Assembly: GCA_015232455.1 (NCBI GenBank)
Contig: JADFZQ010000001.1
Coordinates: 248,001 to 312,000, forward strand
Source of the DNA: Desulfamplus sp.
GTDB lineage: Bacteria; Desulfobacterota; Desulfobacteria; Desulfobacterales; Desulfobacteraceae
DNA length: 64,000 nt
Direction: 5' to 3'
Positions 16,687 through 59,899 of this stretch are shown here, in pieces. The notes under the pieces are model-generated. The model was not told the DNA's origin, did no database searches, and saw only the letters and a program-made list of their open reading frames with translations. The translations under genes and the position numbers were made by a program. The first letter of the stretch is position 1. Each line of letters opens with the position of its first letter.

Positions 16687-17880
16687 TTACTCAATTATTT
16701 CACCAATGACACCAGCCCCTACAGTGCGACCACCTTCACGAATAGCAAAACGAAGCTCTTTTTCCATAGCTATCGGAGCTATCAGTTCAGCAGTTATACT
16801 CGCATTATCTCCGGGCATTATCATCTCAACACCTTCTGCAAGACTTAATATTCCAGTAACATCTGTGGTTCTAAAGAAAAACTGAGGTCTATATCCACTA
16901 AAAAATGGGGTATGACGACCTCCCTCTTCTTTGCTTAAACAATAAATTTCAGCTCTGAACTTAGTATGAGGTGTAATGCTGCCGGGTTTTGCAACTACCT
17001 GTCCTCTTTCAACTGCATCTCTTTTCGTTCCACGAAGAAGGAGTCCTACGTTGTCTCCAGCCTGACCCTCATCAAGTAGCTTCCTAAACATCTCTACACC
17101 AGTACAGGTTGTCTTGGCTGTCTCACGTATTCCTACAAGCTCTACTTCATCTCCTGCTTTGATTATTCCTCTTTCAATCCTGCCAGTTACAACTGTACCA
17201 CGACCAGAAATGCTAAATACGTCTTCAATAGGCATAAGAAATTCTTTATCCATATCGCGTTTTGGCTCAGGAATATAAGAATCAAGAACATTCAAAAGCT
17301 CGGTAATACACTTTGCATCATCTCCATTTGCATCATCACACTCAAGAGCTTTTAATGCACTGCCGCGAACAATCGGTGTATCATCTCCTGGAAAGTCATA
17401 CTTGTCAAGAAGTTCACGCAACTCCATCTCAACAAGCTCTATAAGTTCCATATCATCTACCATATCGCATTTGTTCAAAAACACAACCATACTCGGAACA
17501 CCTACCTGACGTGCAAGAAGTATATGCTCACGAGTCTGAGGCATAGGACCGTCATCTGCACTTACAACAAGTATAGCACCATCCATCTGTGCCGCACCTG
17601 TTATCATATTCTTGATATAGTCAGCATGACCAGGACAATCAACATGAGCATAGTGTCTTTTTTCACTCTCATACTCAACATGAGCTGTCGCTATTGTGAT
17701 TCCACGCTCACGCTCTTCTGGCGCTTTGTCAATCTCATCAAATGGAACATAAGTACCATTGCCCTTCAGTGCCGCATGTTTAGTAATTGCAGCTGTCAAC
17801 GTGGTCTTACCATGATCTATGTGACCTATTGTTCCAATATTCACATGGGGTTTGTTTCTATTAAACTTCTCTTTTGCCAT
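16687..17880 (-). CDS. tuf: Elongation factor Tu, copy 2 (tRNA-linked copy)
   Basis: Second EF-Tu gene, placed after four tRNA genes exactly like E. coli tufB. The 397-residue product appears identical to that of copy 1. I find six base differences (at 16915, 16981, 17080, 17197, 17512 and 17773), all silent. Identity continues for about 14 bases upstream of the ATG, covering the ribosome binding site, then ends abruptly, as expected for ongoing gene conversion. The message probably includes the upstream tRNAs, from which it is freed by tRNA processing. Confidence 0.98.
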
Positions 17881-22772: not shown

Positions 22773-25700
22773 ATGATTGAAGACGATGAAATTCTACAGA
22801 TGTACATTGAAGAATCCCTTGAACACCTTTCAGATATTGAAAGTGATCTGTTGACCATTGAAGGTGATGGAGAAAATATTGATATTGATATTGTAAACAA
22901 TGTTTTCAGAGCTGCCCACTCAATTAAAGGCGGTGCAGGATTCATGGGCTTAACAACTATAAAAGGGCTTGCCCATAGCCTTGAGAATGTCCTTGATCTT
23001 ATAAGGAACAAGGAACTTGTTCCAACGCCGAATAGAATCAGTGTATTGTTAAAAGGTTTTGATAAGCTTGAAAGCCTTATGAACGATATTCAGGCGAGCA
23101 ATGATGAAGATGTATCTGAATATATTGATGCTCTTGCAAATATCACTAAATCTTCATTAACAGAAGAGCAGCAAGATATGGTAACTAATTTGCTTGATCT
23201 TACACTTGCAGATGGACGTGTATTTCCCGCAGTATCGCAATACAGTATTGAACAGGCAAAAGATGATGGAAGATACATATATTTAGTCGAATATGATCTT
23301 ATACAAGATATTCAAAGAAAGAGCAGAAACCCAATAGAGCTTCTTGAATCACTCGAAAAGACAGGCACAATTATTGATTCTCGAATAGATTTTGATTCTG
23401 TTGGAACATTAGGTGATAATCTTCTATCTACAAGAATACCTTTCCAAATACTATTTTCTTCAATATTAGAACCTGACATGGCTGGAACACTCTTTGATCT
23501 TGAAGATCAATATATTCATGTAGTTACTGATGAAATGCTCTCTATTTCAAACGCAACTGAAGATGACGCTGTTGCAGCTATGCCACTTAGAACTGACATT
23601 GAGCCTGAACTTGAAACTATACCCTCAATGGCTACTATTGTTGAGCAAGAAGCTGTTGTTTCTCCGAAATTAGTTGCTACACAAAAACAAAAATCTGTTA
23701 CAGCAACGCCTGATATTCAAAAAGAGCAAATCAGATCAACTCCTGCTACTATAAAAACTGCATCACAAGAAAAAGAAGTTTCTGTTAAGCAAAATATTGC
23801 ACCTGTTAATAAACAAAAAGAAACTTTTAAAGTTGAAGCTCAGGCTAAACAACAACCTGTTAAGGCAAAACCTCCTGTTGCAGCACGTAAAAAAGTGGAG
23901 TCTGTAGCAACAGAAAACGATATAAATGACTATACTAACGAAGGTGATGCTAACAATGCTATGAATATGTCAAAACCTGTGGGTTCTCTGAGGGTTAATG
24001 TAAATCTACTTGATACCCTTATGAACCTTGCAGGAGAGTTAGTTTTAAGCAGGAATCAGTTGATTCAGGGAATTAACTCGTCAAATGCTAAGGCAACCGA
24101 GCTTTCAAGCCAGCGTATTGATATGATTACATCAGAGTTGCAAGAAGCTATTATGAGAACCAGAATGCAGCCAATTGCAAATGTTTTCAACAAATTTACA
24201 AGAGTTGTTCGTGATCTATCACAAGAGCTTGGTAAATCAATTGATCTTGTAATTGAAGGGAAAGAGGTTGAGTTAGATAAAACAATTATAGAGGCTATTA
24301 ATGATCCTTTGACCCATTTGGTTCGTAACTCTGTTGATCATGGTATTGAATTACCGCATGTTAGAGAGGCGGCAGGAAAAAAAGCCACGGGTAAAATAAT
24401 TTTAAAGGCTTTCCATGATGCTGGACAGGTCAATATTATGATCTCTGATGATGGAAAGGGGCTTGATCCTGATAAAATTGCTGCTGCTGCTGTCAAAAAA
24501 GGTTTGATGACGGAACAACAGGTCTCTGAACTTTCTGCTAAAGAGAGGATTGATTTAATTTTACTACCTGGTTTCTCTACAGCCGAAAAAGTTACAGACG
24601 TTTCTGGCAGAGGCGTTGGAATGGATGTTGTTGTTACTAACCTTGCAAAACTTGGCGGAATCATTGAAATTGAGTCTAAAACAGGTAAAGGAACAGATAT
24701 TCAGATTAAACTCCCACTAACGCTTGCTATTATACCAAGTCAGATCATATCCGTTGGAAATGAAAAATATGCGATACCGCAGGTAAATTTAGATGAACTT
24801 CTTAGAATACCAGCTTCTCAGGTGAAAGAGCGTATTGAGAAGGTTGGTGATGCTGATGTAGTAAGGCTTCGTGGTAATCTTCTACCGCTTCTTAATCTTT
24901 CACAGGTACTTGGCATTAAAAAGACTTTTATCCATCCTGATGATGGTATGGAGTATCCTGATCAAAGAGAGAGCATTGCTGATCGTAGATCAAACAGAAC
25001 TGGTCAAAATGGTAAACGTGAATCTGTAAACAGCATACATGCCCATGAGAGAAGTGGGCAAGATCGAAGATATAGAGCATCAAGTGCAATAAATATTGCT
25101 GTGGTATCTGCTGGTGCACATAAATATGGTCTTGTGGTTGATGAGCTGCGAGATTCAGAAGAGATTGTTGTAAAACCCCTTGGCAGACATTTAAAGAAAT
25201 GCAGCGGTTATGCAGGAGCTACCATAATGGGAGATGGAAAAGTGGCATTGATTCTTGATGTCTCAAACCTTGCCCAGATGGGCGAATTGACCACTATGGC
25301 TGAAGCAGAAAGAACTGCAAAAGCTGCAAGGGCTGCTGAAGAGGCAAGAGAAAAAGCTCTTGATAAGGCATCTTTACTTCTCTTCAAAAATGGTCCAGAA
25401 CATTGTGCGGCTCCCCTTAACCTTGTTGAACGTATTGAGAGAATTCCAGTCTCATCAATTGAGCACGTCAGCGGTAAAAAAGTTGTTCAATATAGAGGTG
25501 GTGCATTGCCACTTTATGAACTATCTCAAGTTGCCAATGTCTCAAAACTTCCTCCTACAGAACAGCAAGAAATCATTGTTTTCACAGTAAAAGGTAGAGA
25601 ACTTGGTCTTATGGTTACACCTCCTGTTGATGCGGTAGAAATATCTCTTGATATTGATGATTCAACATTAAAACAGGTTGGGATTAACGGCTCAATGATA

Positions 25701-26180
25701 ATAGATGGTCATACTACATTGCTCGTTGATATTTTTGATGTTGTCAAAAATCTTAATCCATCATGGTTTGAAGATGAAAAACTTGCTGCTGCAGATATGG
25801 AAGAGGCTGGTCAAAAGGTTATTCTTTTTGCGGAAGATTCAGCTTTTTTTAGAAATCAGGTTAAAGGTTTTATGACTGATGAAGGGTATAGTGTGATAAC
25901 GGCTGAAGATGGTGAAATTGCGTGGAATCTTCTTAAAGAGAGATATTCTGAAATTGATCTTGTTGTTACTGATCTTGAGATGCCTAATATGGACGGTTTT
26001 GAACTAACGTCAAAAATCAAAAAAGACCCGCTGCTGTCGCACTTTAAAGTTATTGCTTTGACATCTCTTGCAAGCGATGCTCATGTAAAAAAGGGCAAAG
26101 AGGTGGGCATTGATGAATACGAGATAAAACTTGACCGTGAAAATCTGATGAAACTTATCAGAAGATATTTGAATCTTTAA
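22773..26180 (+). CDS. cheA: Hybrid chemotaxis histidine kinase CheA with C-terminal receiver
   Basis: Autophosphorylating kinase of a chemosensory pathway. Domains in order over 1135 residues: HPt with the phospho-accepting His49 in AAHSIKGGAGF; a middle region with no domain I can name; a Gln/Lys/Val-rich linker (about 290-395); a P3 dimerisation segment; an ATPase with the N box LVRNSVDHGIE near 517 and DDGKG near 559; a first CheW-like domain from about 647 interrupted by a charged Arg/Ser/Asp insert (about 720-770); a second CheW-like domain (about 865-1000); and a receiver from about 1016 with the phospho-acceptor Asp1067 in VVTDLEMP. Heads the cheA-cheW-cheB-cheR operon. Confidence 0.95.
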   Translation: MIEDDEILQMYIEESLEHLSDIESDLLTIEGDGENIDIDIVNNVFRAAHSIKGGAGFMGLTTIKGLAHSLENVLDLIRNKELVPTPNRISVLLKGFDKLESLMNDIQASNDEDVSEYIDALANITKSSLTEEQQDMVTNLLDLTLADGRVFPAVSQYSIEQAKDDGRYIYLVEYDLIQDIQRKSRNPIELLESLEKTGTIIDSRIDFDSVGTLGDNLLSTRIPFQILFSSILEPDMAGTLFDLEDQYIHVVTDEMLSISNATEDDAVAAMPLRTDIEPELETIPSMATIVEQEAVVSPKLVATQKQKSVTATPDIQKEQIRSTPATIKTASQEKEVSVKQNIAPVNKQKETFKVEAQAKQQPVKAKPPVAARKKVESVATENDINDYTNEGDANNAMNMSKPVGSLRVNVNLLDTLMNLAGELVLSRNQLIQGINSSNAKATELSSQRIDMITSELQEAIMRTRMQPIANVFNKFTRVVRDLSQELGKSIDLVIEGKEVELDKTIIEAINDPLTHLVRNSVDHGIELPHVREAAGKKATGKIILKAFHDAGQVNIMISDDGKGLDPDKIAAAAVKKGLMTEQQVSELSAKERIDLILLPGFSTAEKVTDVSGRGVGMDVVVTNLAKLGGIIEIESKTGKGTDIQIKLPLTLAIIPSQIISVGNEKYAIPQVNLDELLRIPASQVKERIEKVGDADVVRLRGNLLPLLNLSQVLGIKKTFIHPDDGMEYPDQRESIADRRSNRTGQNGKRESVNSIHAHERSGQDRRYRASSAINIAVVSAGAHKYGLVVDELRDSEEIVVKPLGRHLKKCSGYAGATIMGDGKVALILDVSNLAQMGELTTMAEAERTAKAARAAEEAREKALDKASLLLFKNGPEHCAAPLNLVERIERIPVSSIEHVSGKKVVQYRGGALPLYELSQVANVSKLPPTEQQEIIVFTVKGRELGLMVTPPVDAVEISLDIDDSTLKQVGINGSMIIDGHTTLLVDIFDVVKNLNPSWFEDEKLAAADMEEAGQKVILFAEDSAFFRNQVKGFMTDEGYSVITAEDGEIAWNLLKERYSEIDLVVTDLEMPNMDGFELTSKIKKDPLLSHFKVIALTSLASDAHVKKGKEVGIDEYEIKLDRENLMKLIRRYLNL

Positions 26181-26207
26181 ATTTTGCTTTGGTGAGGAAA
26201 ATTGAAT

Positions 26208-26669
26208 ATGGCTTCAAAAACAGCTACAAATATGGGAACACTTATAGAGAGCAATACTGAACTTGCAACATTTTATATTGGCAAGGCTCTTTGTGGTATT
26301 GATATATTAAGCATACAGGAGATTAACAAACATTTTGAAGTTACTACAGTCCCTCAAGCACCTGATTATGTTGTGGGAGTTTTAAATTTACGTGGTCGTA
26401 TTGTAACAATACTCGATCTTGGAAAAAAACTTGGACTTTCTCAGATTGAAAAAGATAAACGAAACAGAAATATAATTGTTCGTTCTCAAGATGAGCATAT
26501 AGGGCTTATGGTTGATGCAATAAGCGATGTTGTTACTGCTGAAAAAGATAAAATAGAGCCTGCCCCATCAAATATAAGTGGTTTAAAGGGGCGTTTTTTT
26601 AAAGGTGTTATGAAAACTAAATCATCTTTAATTGGTATTTTAGATATTGAAGAGGTGTTAAAAGATTGA
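26208..26669 (+). CDS. cheW: Chemotaxis coupling protein CheW
   Basis: Scaffold that couples receptors to CheA. The 153 residues form a single CheW domain: FYIGKALCGIDILSIQEI, GVLNLRGRIVTILDLGKKLG and GLMVDAISDVV are typical. A TTG at 26202 also opens the frame, but GAGGAAA is only four bases from it and ten from the ATG at 26208, which I chose. It follows cheA by 27 bases. Confidence 0.92.
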   Translation: MASKTATNMGTLIESNTELATFYIGKALCGIDILSIQEINKHFEVTTVPQAPDYVVGVLNLRGRIVTILDLGKKLGLSQIEKDKRNRNIIVRSQDEHIGLMVDAISDVVTAEKDKIEPAPSNISGLKGRFFKGVMKTKSSLIGILDIEEVLKD

Positions 26670-26757
26670 CATTCTAATTGTCATTACAAATACTACATAA
26701 TTTATATACAAAATAATAATTATAAAACTCTGGATTTAAGAGGTCTTGAAACAATAA

Positions 26758-27981
26758 ATGGGAAAAATAAAAGTTCTCGTAGTTGATGATACTATTGTCT
26801 ATCGTAAAATAGTCAGTGATGTACTTAAACAGATGCCTGATGTTGAGCTTGTGGGGGCTGCAAGCAATGGTAAAACTGCTATATCAAGGATAGCCGCACT
26901 AAAACCCGATATTGTAACATTAGACATAGAGATGCCAGAGATGAATGGAATTGAAGTTCTTGAATATATCAAAGAGAACTCTATTCCAACCTCAGCCGTT
27001 ATGTTAAGCACACTTACCCAACGAGGAAGTGATATGACAATAAAAGCCCTTGAACTCGGGGCTTTTGATTTTATATCTAAACCTGATAAAGGAACAATGG
27101 CTGAGAATATGGTGAAGGTGCGTGATTCTCTTGCTCCTATTATAAATGCCTTTAAACGCCAAAAAGGTTTACCTAAACATAGTCCAGCAGGTTCGTCAGC
27201 AGGAGGAGGACTCACCACCACAAATATTATTCAGCCTCATCACTCATCTATAGCACTTACAAGCCCCCATTCTACTACTGGGATTATAGGAACCAAACTA
27301 ACCTCTAATCTTACTAATTTATCTTCTAAAACCCATATTCATAAATTAAAAAGTGAAGGTAGAAGTGAGATTGTAAAGTCTTCCACTATTATACGAAGAC
27401 AAACCCCTTCATCAATAATAGGAATTGGAATTTCAACAGGAGGTCCTAAAGCATTGGCAGTTATGATGCCTATGTTAACTACAAAGCTTAATGTGCCTGT
27501 ATTGATAGTTCAACACATGCCCCCTGTTTTTACAAAATCACTTGCAAAGAGTCTTGATGCAAAGTGTTCCCTTGAAGTTAAAGAGGCTGAAAATGGTGAA
27601 CCGTTGCGACCCAATACAGTTTTCATTGCCCCGGGAGGAATGCAGATGAAAATAGTAGCTGGTGCTGATGGTAGAACAAGAACTATAAAACTTACAGATG
27701 ACCCGCCAGAAAATAGCTGTAAGCCATCTGTTGACTATCTTTTTAGGTCTATTGCTGAACACTATGTTGGAAGGGCGACCGCAGTTATTATGACTGGAAT
27801 GGGTTCAGATGGAACAAAAGGGCTTGAGCATATCAAAAAAAATGGTGGGGTTATTATTGCTCAAGATAAAGATAGTTGCACTGTATATGGTATGCCAAAA
27901 GAACCGATAGAGTCTGGATTGGCTGATGTGGTTGTCCCTCTTAATCAAATTGCTGAAGAGATAACTAAAACCGTAATTTGA
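26758..27981 (+). CDS. cheB: Chemotaxis response regulator protein-glutamate methylesterase CheB
   Basis: Removes methyl groups from chemoreceptors when phosphorylated by CheA. The receiver domain (1-125) has the acidic pair in VVDDT and the phospho-acceptor Asp56 in TLDIEMPEMNG. A Ser/Thr/His-rich linker follows (about 140-215, longer than usual). The methylesterase domain has the triad Ser226 (GISTGGP), His253 (VQHMPP) and Asp351 (MTGMGSDG). It is the third gene of the operon, 88 bases after cheW. Confidence 0.94.
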   Translation: MGKIKVLVVDDTIVYRKIVSDVLKQMPDVELVGAASNGKTAISRIAALKPDIVTLDIEMPEMNGIEVLEYIKENSIPTSAVMLSTLTQRGSDMTIKALELGAFDFISKPDKGTMAENMVKVRDSLAPIINAFKRQKGLPKHSPAGSSAGGGLTTTNIIQPHHSSIALTSPHSTTGIIGTKLTSNLTNLSSKTHIHKLKSEGRSEIVKSSTIIRRQTPSSIIGIGISTGGPKALAVMMPMLTTKLNVPVLIVQHMPPVFTKSLAKSLDAKCSLEVKEAENGEPLRPNTVFIAPGGMQMKIVAGADGRTRTIKLTDDPPENSCKPSVDYLFRSIAEHYVGRATAVIMTGMGSDGTKGLEHIKKNGGVIIAQDKDSCTVYGMPKEPIESGLADVVVPLNQIAEEITKTVI

Positions 27982-28047
27982 TAAGAACGGAGCTTAAATA
28001 GTAAATATGACATCAAGATGTAACGATCTTAATAATAGTAGGATACA

Positions 28048-28884
28048 ATGATCAAGATCACACCAGCCGAATTTGATATATTATCCAAATATATAATGGA
28101 GATATCTGGAATAGCACTCTCTAAGGGCAAAGAGTATCTTATTGAAACCAGACTCAATCCATTAATGGAACAGTTAGGCTGCACATCATACTCAGACCTT
28201 CACAAAAAAGCAAAATTTGATCCTAAAAAAGATATTGAAAAGAAGATTATTGATGCCATATCTACAAATGAAACCTATTTTTTTAGAGACAAATCTCCTT
28301 TCACATTAATTCAGCATAAAATTATCCCAGATCTCATTGACAGACGGTCAAAAAACAGAACTGTATTAAAGCCGGCTATTAGATTATGGAGTGCTGCAAA
28401 TTCAACGGGACAAGAGATTTATAGCATTGCAATGGCTCTTGATGAAATTGGTATTACCCCTCAAAAATATCAAATTAAACTACTTGGAACAGACATTTCT
28501 GATGCTGCAATTGCTCAAGCAAGTTATGGCAGATATAATAAATTTGAGGTTGCAAGAGGGTTAGAACCCAAAAGACTCAATAAATATTTCACACAAGATG
28601 GTGATTACTGGAAAATCAAAGATGAAATAAGGGCAATGGTTCAGTTCCAGAAGATGAATTTAATGAAACCTTTTGTAGGACTTGGAAAATTTGATATTAT
28701 CTTGTGTCGTAATGTTATGATCTACTTTACTGAGGAAGACAGGCGTAAAATCTACGCCAACATTGCTAAAGTTCTTGAGCCAGATGGCTATCTCATCATT
28801 GGTGCAACAGAATCCCTTGCAAACAATTCAGATCTTTTTGTATCTAAAAGATATTTAAACTCAATTTTTTATCAATTGAGCTAG
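28048..28884 (+). CDS. cheR: Chemotaxis protein methyltransferase CheR
   Basis: S-adenosylmethionine-dependent methyltransferase acting on receptor glutamates, opposing CheB. The 278 residues have the N-terminal helical domain and the family motif NETYFFRD (about 74-81). The SAM region includes IRLWSAANSTGQEIYSIAM, where the usual C of the family's SxAcSTG motif is N. LGTDISDAAIAQA and ILCRNVMIYFTEE follow. The C terminus ends without a TPR or pentapeptide-binding extension. Confidence 0.93.
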   Translation: MIKITPAEFDILSKYIMEISGIALSKGKEYLIETRLNPLMEQLGCTSYSDLHKKAKFDPKKDIEKKIIDAISTNETYFFRDKSPFTLIQHKIIPDLIDRRSKNRTVLKPAIRLWSAANSTGQEIYSIAMALDEIGITPQKYQIKLLGTDISDAAIAQASYGRYNKFEVARGLEPKRLNKYFTQDGDYWKIKDEIRAMVQFQKMNLMKPFVGLGKFDIILCRNVMIYFTEEDRRKIYANIAKVLEPDGYLIIGATESLANNSDLFVSKRYLNSIFYQLS

Positions 28885-28932
28885 TAAAAATAGGGTAATT
28901 TAACAACTATAAAAAATATATGAGAATCAATC

Positions 28933-30621
28933 ATGGCTGGAATTAATCCTAAAGAATTTTTAGAAGAGCTGATTTTTTGTCTAAAAGATGAAGATATTGT
29001 TAAGGCAAAGGCTCTTTTACAGTTCATAACAACCCCTGAGATGAATGTAAATATCCAAAAAAGAGCTTTGCATGAACTATCTAAAGCATCTGAAAGGCTT
29101 GTATTTCCTATACTTGAATATTTAACAACCCTTCAAATACCAAATCCTGAAATACAAGAGAGTCTCTATGAGTTGATACTTGATAAGGCTTATGGAAATG
29201 CTGACAGAATTATCAAATATATAATACAAGATGATAAAAGAAACCGTCTAATCTATATAAAAGTTGCTGGTGATTTTATTCTTGCAGAGGCTGCTCCTGT
29301 TCTTGAAAATATTCTGCTGACATCAAAAGACCCTGAAATTCTAATTCAAACAGCAACATCGCTTGGTTCACTTCGTTTGCCCAAATCTATTCCAACATTA
29401 ATAAAACTAACTGAAAACTATGATGATCCAAATATAAAAAGTGCGGCTATATCTGCAATTTCACAAATTGGGGGTAAAGATGCTGTTGATTACTTAATCT
29501 CTTCAATAACAGGGCGTGATGAATCAGATCAACTAAAAATAAAGGCAATAGGCGAAATACAAGATCAATATTCTCTTAATAAACTTGCCTCTCTTTTAGA
29601 GTCTAAAAACACCCATATAAGAGATGCTGCTATTGATATGTTAATAGAAATTGGTGGTAAAGCTGTTCCAATACTTACTGCTGCAACTTCAAATGCAAAT
29701 ACAGATTTTATGGTGCATTTAATTACCACACTTGGATATATAAGAGACCAAAAAGCATTGCCTGTTATTCTTGATATTATGAAAACAAAGCCAGAAGACC
29801 CTAACATAAGGCAGGCAGCTTATGAAAGCATGGAGAGAATTCCATCAACTAAATCATCTATTGCCCTTGCAATTGGTATCCAAGACCCAGTTGAAGCTGT
29901 GCGGATGAGTGCAGCTCGTGCAATGGATAAAAATATTTCAAAGGTTCTTGTTGCTGGTCTTAAAAATATTGTTAGAGAGGGTAATGAAGAGGCTTTAAAT
30001 GCAGTTGGTGCTTTGATTGATTCAGAGGCAGACAATATTTTTAATTTTTTGCTTCAAGAAGAGGCATTTATTAAGCTGTCAGTGAAACATGTAACTACAA
30101 AAGCAGACAAAAAGACAAGAGAACATTTTCTTGGAATATTGAGAAAGAAGAATTATCAAGCACTTGCAGATAAAATTGTTCAGTTGATTCCAGAAGAGAA
30201 AAAAGAGAATGCCTGTCAGATTGCCCAGATTTATGTTGTAGATGACTCTAAGATGATGCTTAAGCTCTATGAAAACAAAATTACAGGTTTCGGGTATAAT
30301 GTAACCTCTTTTGTATTTCCAGAAGATGCTATACGTCAAATATATGCATCAAAGCCTGACCTTGTTATAACTGATCTTAATATGCCTAAAATGAATGGTA
30401 TCCAGCTTTCTCAGGCAATCAGGAAAAAATATTCGTCAGTTGAGCTACCAATTGTGATGATAACAACTCAAAGTGATGTTGTAGAGTCAGAGAACAACGA
30501 TGAGTTAAAAATGAGCAAAAGCCTTCTTGGGAATGTTGGTATAAACAAAGTTCTTCATAAACCTTTTTCTAATGAGGAGCTTCAAGAGACTATTTTGAAA
30601 CTTTTAGGTGGGAAATGTTAA
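28933..30621 (+). CDS. HEAT-repeat protein with C-terminal response-regulator receiver domain
   Basis: About residues 60-400 are HEAT-like helical repeats (recurring patterns such as IRDAAIDMLIEIGGKAVPIL and IRQAAYESMERIPSTKSSIA), a protein-protein interaction scaffold. A receiver follows from about 433: YVVDDSKMM supplies the acidic pair, LVITDLNMPKMNG the phospho-acceptor Asp, and HKPF the conserved Lys. It lacks a DNA-binding domain. It is the fifth gene of the che operon, which has no cheY, so it may be the phosphorylation output of CheA. That role is inferred; domain assignments are read from sequence. Confidence 0.82.
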   Translation: MAGINPKEFLEELIFCLKDEDIVKAKALLQFITTPEMNVNIQKRALHELSKASERLVFPILEYLTTLQIPNPEIQESLYELILDKAYGNADRIIKYIIQDDKRNRLIYIKVAGDFILAEAAPVLENILLTSKDPEILIQTATSLGSLRLPKSIPTLIKLTENYDDPNIKSAAISAISQIGGKDAVDYLISSITGRDESDQLKIKAIGEIQDQYSLNKLASLLESKNTHIRDAAIDMLIEIGGKAVPILTAATSNANTDFMVHLITTLGYIRDQKALPVILDIMKTKPEDPNIRQAAYESMERIPSTKSSIALAIGIQDPVEAVRMSAARAMDKNISKVLVAGLKNIVREGNEEALNAVGALIDSEADNIFNFLLQEEAFIKLSVKHVTTKADKKTREHFLGILRKKNYQALADKIVQLIPEEKKENACQIAQIYVVDDSKMMLKLYENKITGFGYNVTSFVFPEDAIRQIYASKPDLVITDLNMPKMNGIQLSQAIRKKYSSVELPIVMITTQSDVVESENNDELKMSKSLLGNVGINKVLHKPFSNEELQETILKLLGGKC

Positions 30622-31076
30622 GAAAAGCAACACCAGCAGATGTTAAGTCGATTCATGCAATTCTTCAGTTATATGGAAAAAAAGGAGAACTTCTTGCAAG
30701 ACCTTTAAGTGAATTATATGACCATATCCGCGATTTTTGGGTCTATACTGAGGAAACTACGGGGGAAGTTTTAGGTTGTTGTGCTCTTCAATTCTGCTGG
30801 TCTAACCTTGCTGAAATTCGCTCTCTTGCAGTTGTAGAAACAGCTAACGGCAGAGGTATCGGAACTATGTTGGTTGATAGAACAATACAGGAGGCAGAAA
30901 TCTTTAAAATGCCAAAACTATTTACCCTTACTTATAGACCAACTTTTTTTCAAAGGTTTGGATTTGAGCAGATAGATAGGGCAGAACTTCCAATCAAAAT
31001 ATGGTCAGGTTGTATTACGTGCGTAAATTTCCCTGACTGCAACGAGATTGCTATGCTTAAGCGTATAAAGATTTAA
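30615..31076 (+). CDS. argA: GNAT N-acetyltransferase, short ArgA-like N-acetylglutamate synthase
   Basis: Probably transfers acetyl from acetyl-CoA to L-glutamate, the first step of arginine biosynthesis. The 153-residue single GNAT domain has the ArgA-type strands LAEIRSLAV and GRGIGTMLVD (acetyl-CoA loop). The C-terminal pattern FTLTYRPTFFQRFGFEQIDR, followed by LPIKIWSGC and FPDCNEIAM, is characteristic of short N-acetylglutamate synthases. The ATG overlaps the last seven bases of the HEAT-receiver gene, implying translational coupling to a chemosensory operon. A generic GNAT function is the alternative. Confidence 0.75.
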   Translation: MLRKATPADVKSIHAILQLYGKKGELLARPLSELYDHIRDFWVYTEETTGEVLGCCALQFCWSNLAEIRSLAVVETANGRGIGTMLVDRTIQEAEIFKMPKLFTLTYRPTFFQRFGFEQIDRAELPIKIWSGCITCVNFPDCNEIAMLKRIKI

Positions 31077-58519: not shown

Positions 58520-59899
58520 TTAACTATTTAGATCAAATACATGCAAAGGAATCGCATCAATAATTTTTGCCATATCAGAAATTGATAATCCCAAGTTTGA
58601 TAATATCTTATTAAGATTTTCAGACTCTGTATTATCAGTTTGAACTATGCTATTAAACCTCAACATTAAAAGATCAGCAATATGGACTATGCTGACAATA
58701 TTTCTATTTTTGATTGGAGAGTTTTGAGAATCGTGGTGGTATTTGATGACATCGATCAATAAATCAGAAAAGCACCACTTCTTTGCTAAAATCACTCCAG
58801 TTTCACAATGCGTTATTCCAAGTATATTTTGTTCAGCAGTAAGATAATCAGCCTTTTTTTGGTGAAGTTCCCTAAAAAACAATGGGTAGAGATTTGCAAC
58901 ATATTGATCTAAAACAACTTTGCCAATATCATGTAAAAGTCCTGCTGTGTAAGCAATTTTAGGCTCTATTTTTCCTGTAATTTTTGCTATAATTTCAGAT
59001 GTTACTGCACACCCCACAGAGTGAAAAAACATACCACCTCGACACATAGAGTAACCATTAGCGTCAGATTGATTGAAATAATTTTTTATTGCAGCAGTAA
59101 TAACAGAGTTGATTAAGGTGGTTTCTCCAAGAATCAGCAGAGCATCTTTTAAAGTCTCTATTCTTATTTTTCCTGCAAATATCGCTGAATTACACATCTG
59201 AATTGTTCTTGCGGCAAGCACCTGATCTTTTTGAAGCTCTTTTTCAATAGAGCTAAGTGAGTAGTTGTCCTTTTGAACAATGCGCATAATTTTAAGTGCT
59301 GTTTGAGGAATTGGGTTTAAAGACTCTATGGTATTCTCAATACTATCTTTAGAAGGTCTCTCTACTTCAACAATATTGCTACTACTATCTCTATGTGTCT
59401 CTTTATGAATTGAATTTTCATTATAACTCCATGCGGGTTTTATTGTAGTTACGCCATTGCTTAAGTTTAATTCTAATGTGCAGGTAAAAAAGCCGCCTGT
59501 TTCAGATTTTTTTATTGCTATCCCCTCTCTACATAGAATTTTCATAACAATATCAGTTGAACGACCACCAATATCTAAGTTTATATCTTGGTGGCTTAGA
59601 GGTCCAACTAATGCACCTCCAGCAACTGTTGCAACCATGTTATCTTGGGTTGCTCCCATTGAATACATCTCCTGCAAAAGCAAGGGAAGACCAGTAGAAG
59701 CATATTTTTCTGGATTTTCAGGAGCAAAACTACTAACTGGTTCTGGCAAAAGTATATGGATAATCCCGCCAATGTGTGCATGATCATCAAATATGGCAAC
59801 TCCTACACACGTCCCAAGGTGTGCTTGAAATAAGAAATTACTCTTTTTTGCTGTTTTAAAACTTCCTGAAGGGATATGTGTTGTAATAAAATGGACCAT
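58520..59899 (-). CDS. CheD-HDOD fusion: chemoreceptor deamidase domain plus HDOD domain
   Basis: 459 residues. Residues 1-155 are CheD, which deamidates glutamines of chemoreceptors: the catalytic Cys31 in LGTCVGVAIF and His48 in GGIIHILLPEP have the same 17-residue spacing as the Cys/His pair of Thermotoga CheD, but the third catalytic position (Thr in that enzyme) is Gln25 here. After a Ser/Glu-rich linker, residues about 190-400 form an HDOD domain (LNPIPQTALKIMRIV, MCNSAIFAGKIR, GLLHDIGKVVLDQ near 323). HDOD domains are signalling modules. The fusion ties receptor modification to an unknown HDOD output. Confidence 0.88.
   Translation of the reverse strand: MVHFITTHIPSGSFKTAKKSNFLFQAHLGTCVGVAIFDDHAHIGGIIHILLPEPVSSFAPENPEKYASTGLPLLLQEMYSMGATQDNMVATVAGGALVGPLSHQDINLDIGGRSTDIVMKILCREGIAIKKSETGGFFTCTLELNLSNGVTTIKPAWSYNENSIHKETHRDSSSNIVEVERPSKDSIENTIESLNPIPQTALKIMRIVQKDNYSLSSIEKELQKDQVLAARTIQMCNSAIFAGKIRIETLKDALLILGETTLINSVITAAIKNYFNQSDANGYSMCRGGMFFHSVGCAVTSEIIAKITGKIEPKIAYTAGLLHDIGKVVLDQYVANLYPLFFRELHQKKADYLTAEQNILGITHCETGVILAKKWCFSDLLIDVIKYHHDSQNSPIKNRNIVSIVHIADLLMLRFNSIVQTDNTESENLNKILSNLGLSISDMAKIIDAIPLHVFDLNS

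Follow-up and report, generated by a model that had tools for sequence, protein, structure and literature searches.

Chemosensory operons are as a rule assigned to classes on the basis of their kinase. As stated in the available sections of the respective articles, a duplicated CheW domain in CheA is a criterion of the F5 class (PMC10782961), and the Azospirillum Che1 system was assigned to this class, with receptors predicted to be of the 38H type (PMC6759762). HEAT-repeat partners of chemosensory pathways are already known from the accessible parts of the reports on Myxococcus, where the HEAT protein Cpc7 interacts with CheY7 (PMC11514114; PMC9040617), and on Halobacterium, where flagellar switching requires the HEAT_PBS protein OE2401F and is abolished by its deletion (PMC2666748). 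Here we analyzed a 64-kb stretch of a Desulfamplus sp. genome (the window; contig JADFZQ010000001.1, positions 248,001 to 312,000), in which an apparently F5-type operon ends in a gene for a 562-amino acid HEAT-repeat/receiver regulator, referred to as HEAT-RR. We propose, with moderate confidence, that HEAT-RR acts beside CheY in flagellar chemotaxis, as an accessory adaptor switched by phosphorylation. In the open-access literature searched, we found no report of a HEAT-receiver gene as part of a cheA operon; this does not prove that there is none, and the fusion is new with respect to that literature.

The operon, its kinase and its receptors

The first-pass annotation of this DNA had described a hybrid cheA with two CheW-like domains and a receiver, followed consecutively by cheW, cheB, cheR and a HEAT-receiver gene. 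Analysis of the open reading frames (ORFs) and Pfam matches confirmed this arrangement, with five consecutive chemosensory genes, cheA-cheW-cheB-cheR-HEAT-RR, spanning positions 22773-30621 of the plus strand. The cheA gene (22773-26180; ORF, Pfam and synteny) codes for an F5-type hybrid CheA of 1135 amino acids that consists, in this order, of a P1/Hpt domain (amino acids 6-100, 22788-23072, PF01627), a dimerisation domain (amino acids 405-462, 23985-24158, PF02895, H-kinase_dim), an ATPase domain (amino acids 511-650, 24303-24722, PF02518, HATPase), two CheW-like domains (24747-25277 and 25374-25748, PF01584) and a C-terminal receiver (amino acids 1017-1129, 25821-26159, PF00072, Response_reg). 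Three stretches of the protein match CheW, and they correspond to two domains, the first of which is divided into halves by an insertion of about 40 amino acids (about 24927-25043). Splitting of the CheW domain by an insertion, an artefact, is described for the CheA of Desulfobacteraceae in the available part of PMC10782961. The following genes are cheW (26202-26669, PF01584), cheB (26758-27981), which encodes a receiver and a methylesterase (Pfam; NF001965 above cut-off), cheR (28048-28884), with its N-terminal and SAM domains (PF01739, PF03705), and HEAT-RR (28933-30621), assigned by Pfam, an AlphaFold2 model and synteny.

The duplicated CheW domain, the receiver at the C-terminus of CheA and the order cheA-cheW-(cheY)-cheB-cheR, with cheY outside the operon, are all features of the F5 class. 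Among plasmid-borne CheA proteins, the most complete matches to the window CheA were those of Azospirillum and Rhodovastum, and of the operons of these plasmid proteins, one, cheA-W-Y-B-R, is located upstream of fliI and the other, cheA-W-B-R, lies among flagellar genes together with cheY and cheZ. From the architecture, the gene order and these nearest relatives, we infer that the window operon is F5-type, a class that serves flagellar chemotaxis in Azospirillum. Unlike Azospirillum Che1, the window operon does not include cheY, its fifth gene encodes a HEAT-receiver protein, and the receptors and a cheY-cheX pair are encoded elsewhere.

A domain search of the window found no methyl-accepting chemotaxis protein (MCP) and no further CheW or CheA match beyond the operon. 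The first-pass annotation had taken the system to have no receptor, a claim that did not survive the genome-wide search. The genome, which measures 4.35 Mb and is 98.5% complete, contains 34 distinct receptor ORFs. In a comparison with receptors whose genes are located within or beside sister F5 operons, 22 of them reached 227-458 bits and the other 12 reached 23-212. Tsr of E. coli is a 36H receptor. When one of these 22 receptors was aligned with it, the gaps amounted to about one heptad per helix, as expected for a 38H receptor, the type predicted for Che1. An operon working without receptors was rejected, as these are encoded in trans.

Other chemosensory loci were also noticed. A second F5-like CheA of 1106 amino acids with an identical domain order is encoded at G000:C5 (L174, 5484-14127), together with CheW, a receptor, CheB and a separate 367-amino acid protein with Hpt and P2-like parts that resembles the CheA N-terminus. 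At G000:C25 (L171, 6402-8372 and 8375-10441), the product of one gene is receptor-like and contains two MCP signalling domains, and the adjacent gene encodes a 688-amino acid protein with four CheW matches; both genes belong to a large che cluster, in which CheA matches Hpt twice.

HEAT-RR and the position after cheR

HEAT-RR matches Pfam HEAT_2 (116 bits) and Response_reg (74 bits). Its AlphaFold2 model, with a mean predicted local distance difference test score (pLDDT) of 87.3, consists of a HEAT solenoid up to about residue 420 (amino acids 1-420, 28933-30192), a linker and the receiver (amino acids 433-554, 30229-30594; Pfam and an alignment of 23 rows). The best PDB matches of the solenoid were alphaRep/HEAT-like structures and generic HEAT/ARM solenoids, and the receiver was superimposed on Vibrio CheY4 over 119 residues (VIA-align Z 19.5, rmsd 1.6). 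The fold searches found no functionally informative relative of the solenoid, the VIA list containing mostly receiver matches, and PHROGs gave additional matches only over the receiver end. Residues D437, D438, D481, T511 and K543 of the receiver are invariant in all 23 rows, i.e., the phosphorylation site is complete. The position equivalent to Tyr106 of CheY is occupied by V, I or L in 23/23 and by Tyr in 0/23. HEAT-RR is therefore like CheY in that its receiver has all the phosphorylation residues, and unlike it in that the domain is not stand-alone but fused to a HEAT solenoid, the switch position is not Tyr and a separate CheY is present. The first-pass annotation had proposed an output through protein-protein contact, which is reasonable since HEAT-RR does not have the tyrosine used by CheY for motor switching.

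Strong conservation is also found in stretches of the solenoid (positions about 261-340). HEAT-RR genes without che neighbors were identified in ten loci (L282-L289, L300 and L301) of families f30, f53, f46, f22 and f44, nine of which were included in an alignment that left out the tandem copy L287. These nine orphans and the 23 che-set rows have 69 near-invariant positions in common, distributed over the HEAT and receiver parts. C16, A27, L28, Q30 and F31 (28978-29025) are kept in the che set and differ in the orphans, making this N-terminal stretch a candidate for a pathway-specific contact; a residue pattern derived for the orphan copies proved unreliable and was disregarded. A distant paralog at G000:C44:167310-168062 (L170, 7233-8996), with 28% identity over the matched part, has no che neighbors and adjoins a gene that by eye starts like a UDP-glucose epimerase; similar paralogs are present in many relatives.

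The nearest named relatives are Desulfamplus, with HEAT-RR identities of 97% in a Desulfamplus metagenome-assembled genome and 80% in D. magnetovallimortis. The order cheA-W-B-R-HEAT-RR recurs, as far as the contigs reach, in the 27 loci examined with the exception of L160, a second HEAT-RR copy; the 27 include four named Desulfamplus records, and two of these four repeat loci that are otherwise represented. Because HEAT-RR adjoins cheR in all but one of these loci, the arrangement is not due to chance. In total, HEAT-RR follows cheR in 33 distinct genomes mapped, that of the window included, and it is linked to the F5 operon in at least nine families (f1, f10, f14, f18, f21, f27, f35, f48 and f68).

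The gene after cheR varies among relatives. It is HEAT-RR in the family of the window genome and in several others, a true cheY in G096, a receiver-GGDEF gene in G236 and G107 (receiver-GGDEF loci L332, 14399-15793, and L324, 3427-4677), a gene for a multi-receiver histidine kinase in G181, and, in G235, G186, G082, G053 and G261, one for a receiver extended at its C-terminus. This variation suggests that the position after cheR is an exchangeable output slot. The receiver-GGDEF genes point to cyclic di-GMP (c-di-GMP) as a further output of this kinase core. Since cheA-W-B-R is nearly constant and the exchangeable fifth regulator matches the type of motility, these operons constitute a natural series for the re-plumbing of one kinase core.

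Flagella, CheY and the possible roles of HEAT-RR

The presence of fliM was used as the marker of flagella in three samples: 58 relatives, 242 genomes of the order and 61 genomes with an F5-like CheA of at least 800 bits. Association was assessed by Fisher tests, whose p values ignore phylogeny. HEAT-RR and FliM were found together in 29 of the 58 relatives, HEAT-RR alone in 2 (genomes 70% and 81% complete), FliM alone in 12 and neither in 15 (p 4e-5). The corresponding numbers were 44, 2, 89 and 107 for the order (p 3e-11), where fliM was present in 44/46 genomes with HEAT-RR vs. 89/196 without it, and 40, 2, 8 and 11 for the genomes with an F5-like CheA (p 1e-5). The kinase itself was found in 42/46 HEAT-RR genomes vs. 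19/196 of the rest. An F5-like CheA is kept without fliM in 13 of the 61 genomes, and HEAT-RR is absent from 11 of these 13; CheY is missing as well in all 11 genomes that have CheA and neither fliM nor HEAT-RR. Receivers other than HEAT-RR occupy the slot in the fliM-minus genomes G053, G181 and G107, and in G068 and G221, also fliM-minus, cheR, a PBP1A-like gene, argA and pgk are found in order and HEAT-RR alone is absent. The contigs of G081, G262 and G179 (L330, L317 and L323) end before the slot, and absence there rests on the genome-wide search. The kinase core may serve another role in the fliM-minus genomes that keep CheA.

A canonical cheY is located in the window genome at C33:64324-64695, beside cheX (PF13690) and a gene for a sigma-54 activator. 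In G024, the gene for a 124-amino acid CheY and a CheX-type gene are located together, at a distance of about 20 kb from fliM. CheY orthologs (at least 79% identity) were detected in 34/58 relatives, including 29/31 with HEAT-RR, and CheY was present in 21/21 che-linked HEAT-RR genomes queried. In 28/28 parsed CheY loci (30 were tried), the residue three places N-terminal to the conserved Lys, the Tyr106 position, is Tyr. FliM of the window genome begins MSEILSQDEVDSLL, with the N-terminus LSQDEVDSLL, which we take to be of the CheY-binding type. The proposal that the HEAT-receiver stands in place of CheY is then correct with regard to the last operon slot, which is that of cheY in G096, but not with regard to the genome. 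The non-flagellar function suggested for the system by the first-pass annotation is not supported, in view of the coexistence of HEAT-RR with fliM in 44/46 genomes, when the alternative cellular function (ACF) class is defined by no association with flagella, as well as of the cheY-cheX pair and the FliM N-terminus. The coexistence of HEAT-RR and CheY suggests that the flagellar chemotaxis of Desulfobacterales, including that of magnetotactic species, has a second output.

An accessory phosphorylation-controlled adaptor is favored because the receiver is complete, HEAT solenoids commonly bind proteins, and there are two HEAT precedents, OE2401F and Cpc7. In the pathway that we envision, 38H-like receptors encoded elsewhere would drive CheA through CheW and would be adapted by CheB and CheR, while FliM would be the target of the canonical CheY, whose gene lies elsewhere, next to that of the phosphatase CheX. 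Since a complete receiver is encoded in the cheA operon, it would be phosphorylated by that CheA, at Asp481. Phosphorylation would alter what the HEAT solenoid binds, the solenoid being a putative adaptor that would contact the Che proteins as well as a partner at the pole or on the side of the flagellum, and kinase activity would thereby gain a second output besides CheY-P. The precedents are works-like comparisons only. HEAT-RR is like Myxococcus xanthus Che7 (CheY7 plus Cpc7) in that a HEAT solenoid is tied to a chemosensory receiver; in the available descriptions of Che7 the two are separate proteins and the output is development, whereas in HEAT-RR they are fused and the protein tracks flagella. 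OE2401F is likewise a HEAT-repeat protein encoded near che genes, but a receiver domain is not reported in the accessible part of its description and the organelle is an archaellum, not a flagellum. A more ambitious version, which we regard as less likely, makes HEAT-RR a dedicated second output, a phosphorylation-switched scaffold through which the receptor array would be physically coupled to the motor or to the flagellar pole. Such a scaffold would be a bacterial, covalently fused counterpart of CheY7-Cpc7 and of the HEAT switch factor of haloarchaea. It would come and go with the flagellum, and the kinase core would be reused for other outputs through exchange of the fifth gene (cheY, receiver-GGDEF, receiver with coil or HEAT-receiver).

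Several observations weigh against a flagellar adaptor acting beside CheY. In a CheA tree with 54 rows, 8 changes of FliM and 7 of HEAT-RR were counted; there are five well-supported independent pairs, about two in the predicted direction and none in the opposite one, and the phylogeny-aware p is not significant. The Fisher values consequently overstate the evidence: the direction of the association is consistent and the independent events are few. Eight flagellated genomes with an F5-like CheA, among them G081 with its truncated contig, do not have HEAT-RR, CheY being present in G085, G241, G096 and G186, and HEAT-RR is dispensable in G085 and G241 (84% and 93% complete), where flagella, CheY and the F5 operon are present. 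Conversely, G063 and G251 have HEAT-RR without FliM, and genomes of the f30/f53 type have HEAT-RR unlinked to che genes and without this CheY. Sigma-28, sigma-54 and sigma-70 motifs 5′ of cheA were no better than in shuffled sequences in 20 loci, so that neither a sigma-28 nor a sigma-54 motif stands above chance upstream of cheA. Finally, the single-contig genome G033 has HEAT-RR and FliM, a cheB split into two frames and no CheY ortholog; a search for CheX in five stretches, each of about 20 kb and surrounding its flagellar genes, did not find it. G033 may have a decaying pathway or a HEAT-RR that works without CheY.

HEAT-RR could instead be a phosphate sink or signal-termination partner, its receiver draining phosphoryl groups from CheA and its HEAT part only tethering it to the array. 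The complete active site and the missing switch tyrosine agree with this idea, and CheA-borne receivers acting as sinks are described in the available part of PMC10782961. However, CheA already has its own receiver, a CheX phosphatase gene adjoins cheY, a 420-amino acid solenoid with strongly conserved stretches exceeds the needs of a sink, and orphan copies exist away from che genes; we consider a sink unlikely. Somewhat less probable still is an operon that does not act on flagella and uses HEAT-RR for an output to pili, development or aggregation. The persistence of F5-like CheA in the 13 fliM-minus genomes would fit such a function, as would the Myxococcus HEAT protein, which serves an alternative-function pathway according to the sections available, and the receiver-GGDEF genes of G236 and G107 imply that the operon type is not bound to flagella. 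Nonetheless, HEAT-RR is absent from 11/13 of those genomes and accompanies fliM in 44/46, and the window genome has CheY/CheX and a FliM with a CheY-type N-terminus.

The unlinked HEAT-RRs of f30, f53, f46 and f22, mostly from flagellated genomes and with the 69 conserved positions in common with the che set, raise the idea that HEAT-RR is part of the machinery of the flagellum or the pole, that its che link is secondary and that other kinases may serve its receiver. The linkage to the F5 operon kept in at least nine families and the enrichment of F5-like CheA in HEAT-RR genomes speak against it, and we give it little credence. True replacement of CheY as the motor regulator is very improbable: HEAT-RR does occupy the position of cheY in G096, and G033 has FliM without this CheY, but CheY is present in 29/31 HEAT-RR genomes and in every che-linked one queried, and the Tyr106 position is aliphatic in all 23 HEAT-RRs. 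With respect to the accessory adaptor that we favor, phosphotransfer to HEAT-RR, its partner and the adaptor role, like the F5 class, are inferred.

Neighboring genes in the window

The flanks of the operon are often kept too and include lytic transglycosylase, U32, argA, pgk, radC and gyrA genes. The HEAT-RR stop is overlapped by 7 bases by the start of an argA-like GNAT N-acetyltransferase ORF (30615-31076, plus strand; NCBIfam NF005840 above cut-off), which is probably a housekeeping gene outside the chemosensory pathway. It was ruled out as the pathway output, as a PBP1A-type gene separates HEAT-RR from argA in several relatives. U32, lytic transglycosylase and pgk were also rejected as pathway partners, since they look like conserved housekeeping neighbors.

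A 459-amino acid protein (58520-59899, minus strand) has an N-terminal CheD domain, of the chemotaxis deamidase type (PF03975, 76 bits), fused to HDOD/HD (PF08668, 156 bits); its gene is 28 kb from the che operon in otherwise housekeeping surroundings. Two ordinary EF-Tu genes are located about 15 kb apart on the minus strand (1446-2639 and 16687-17880), the second one adjoining a tRNA cluster.

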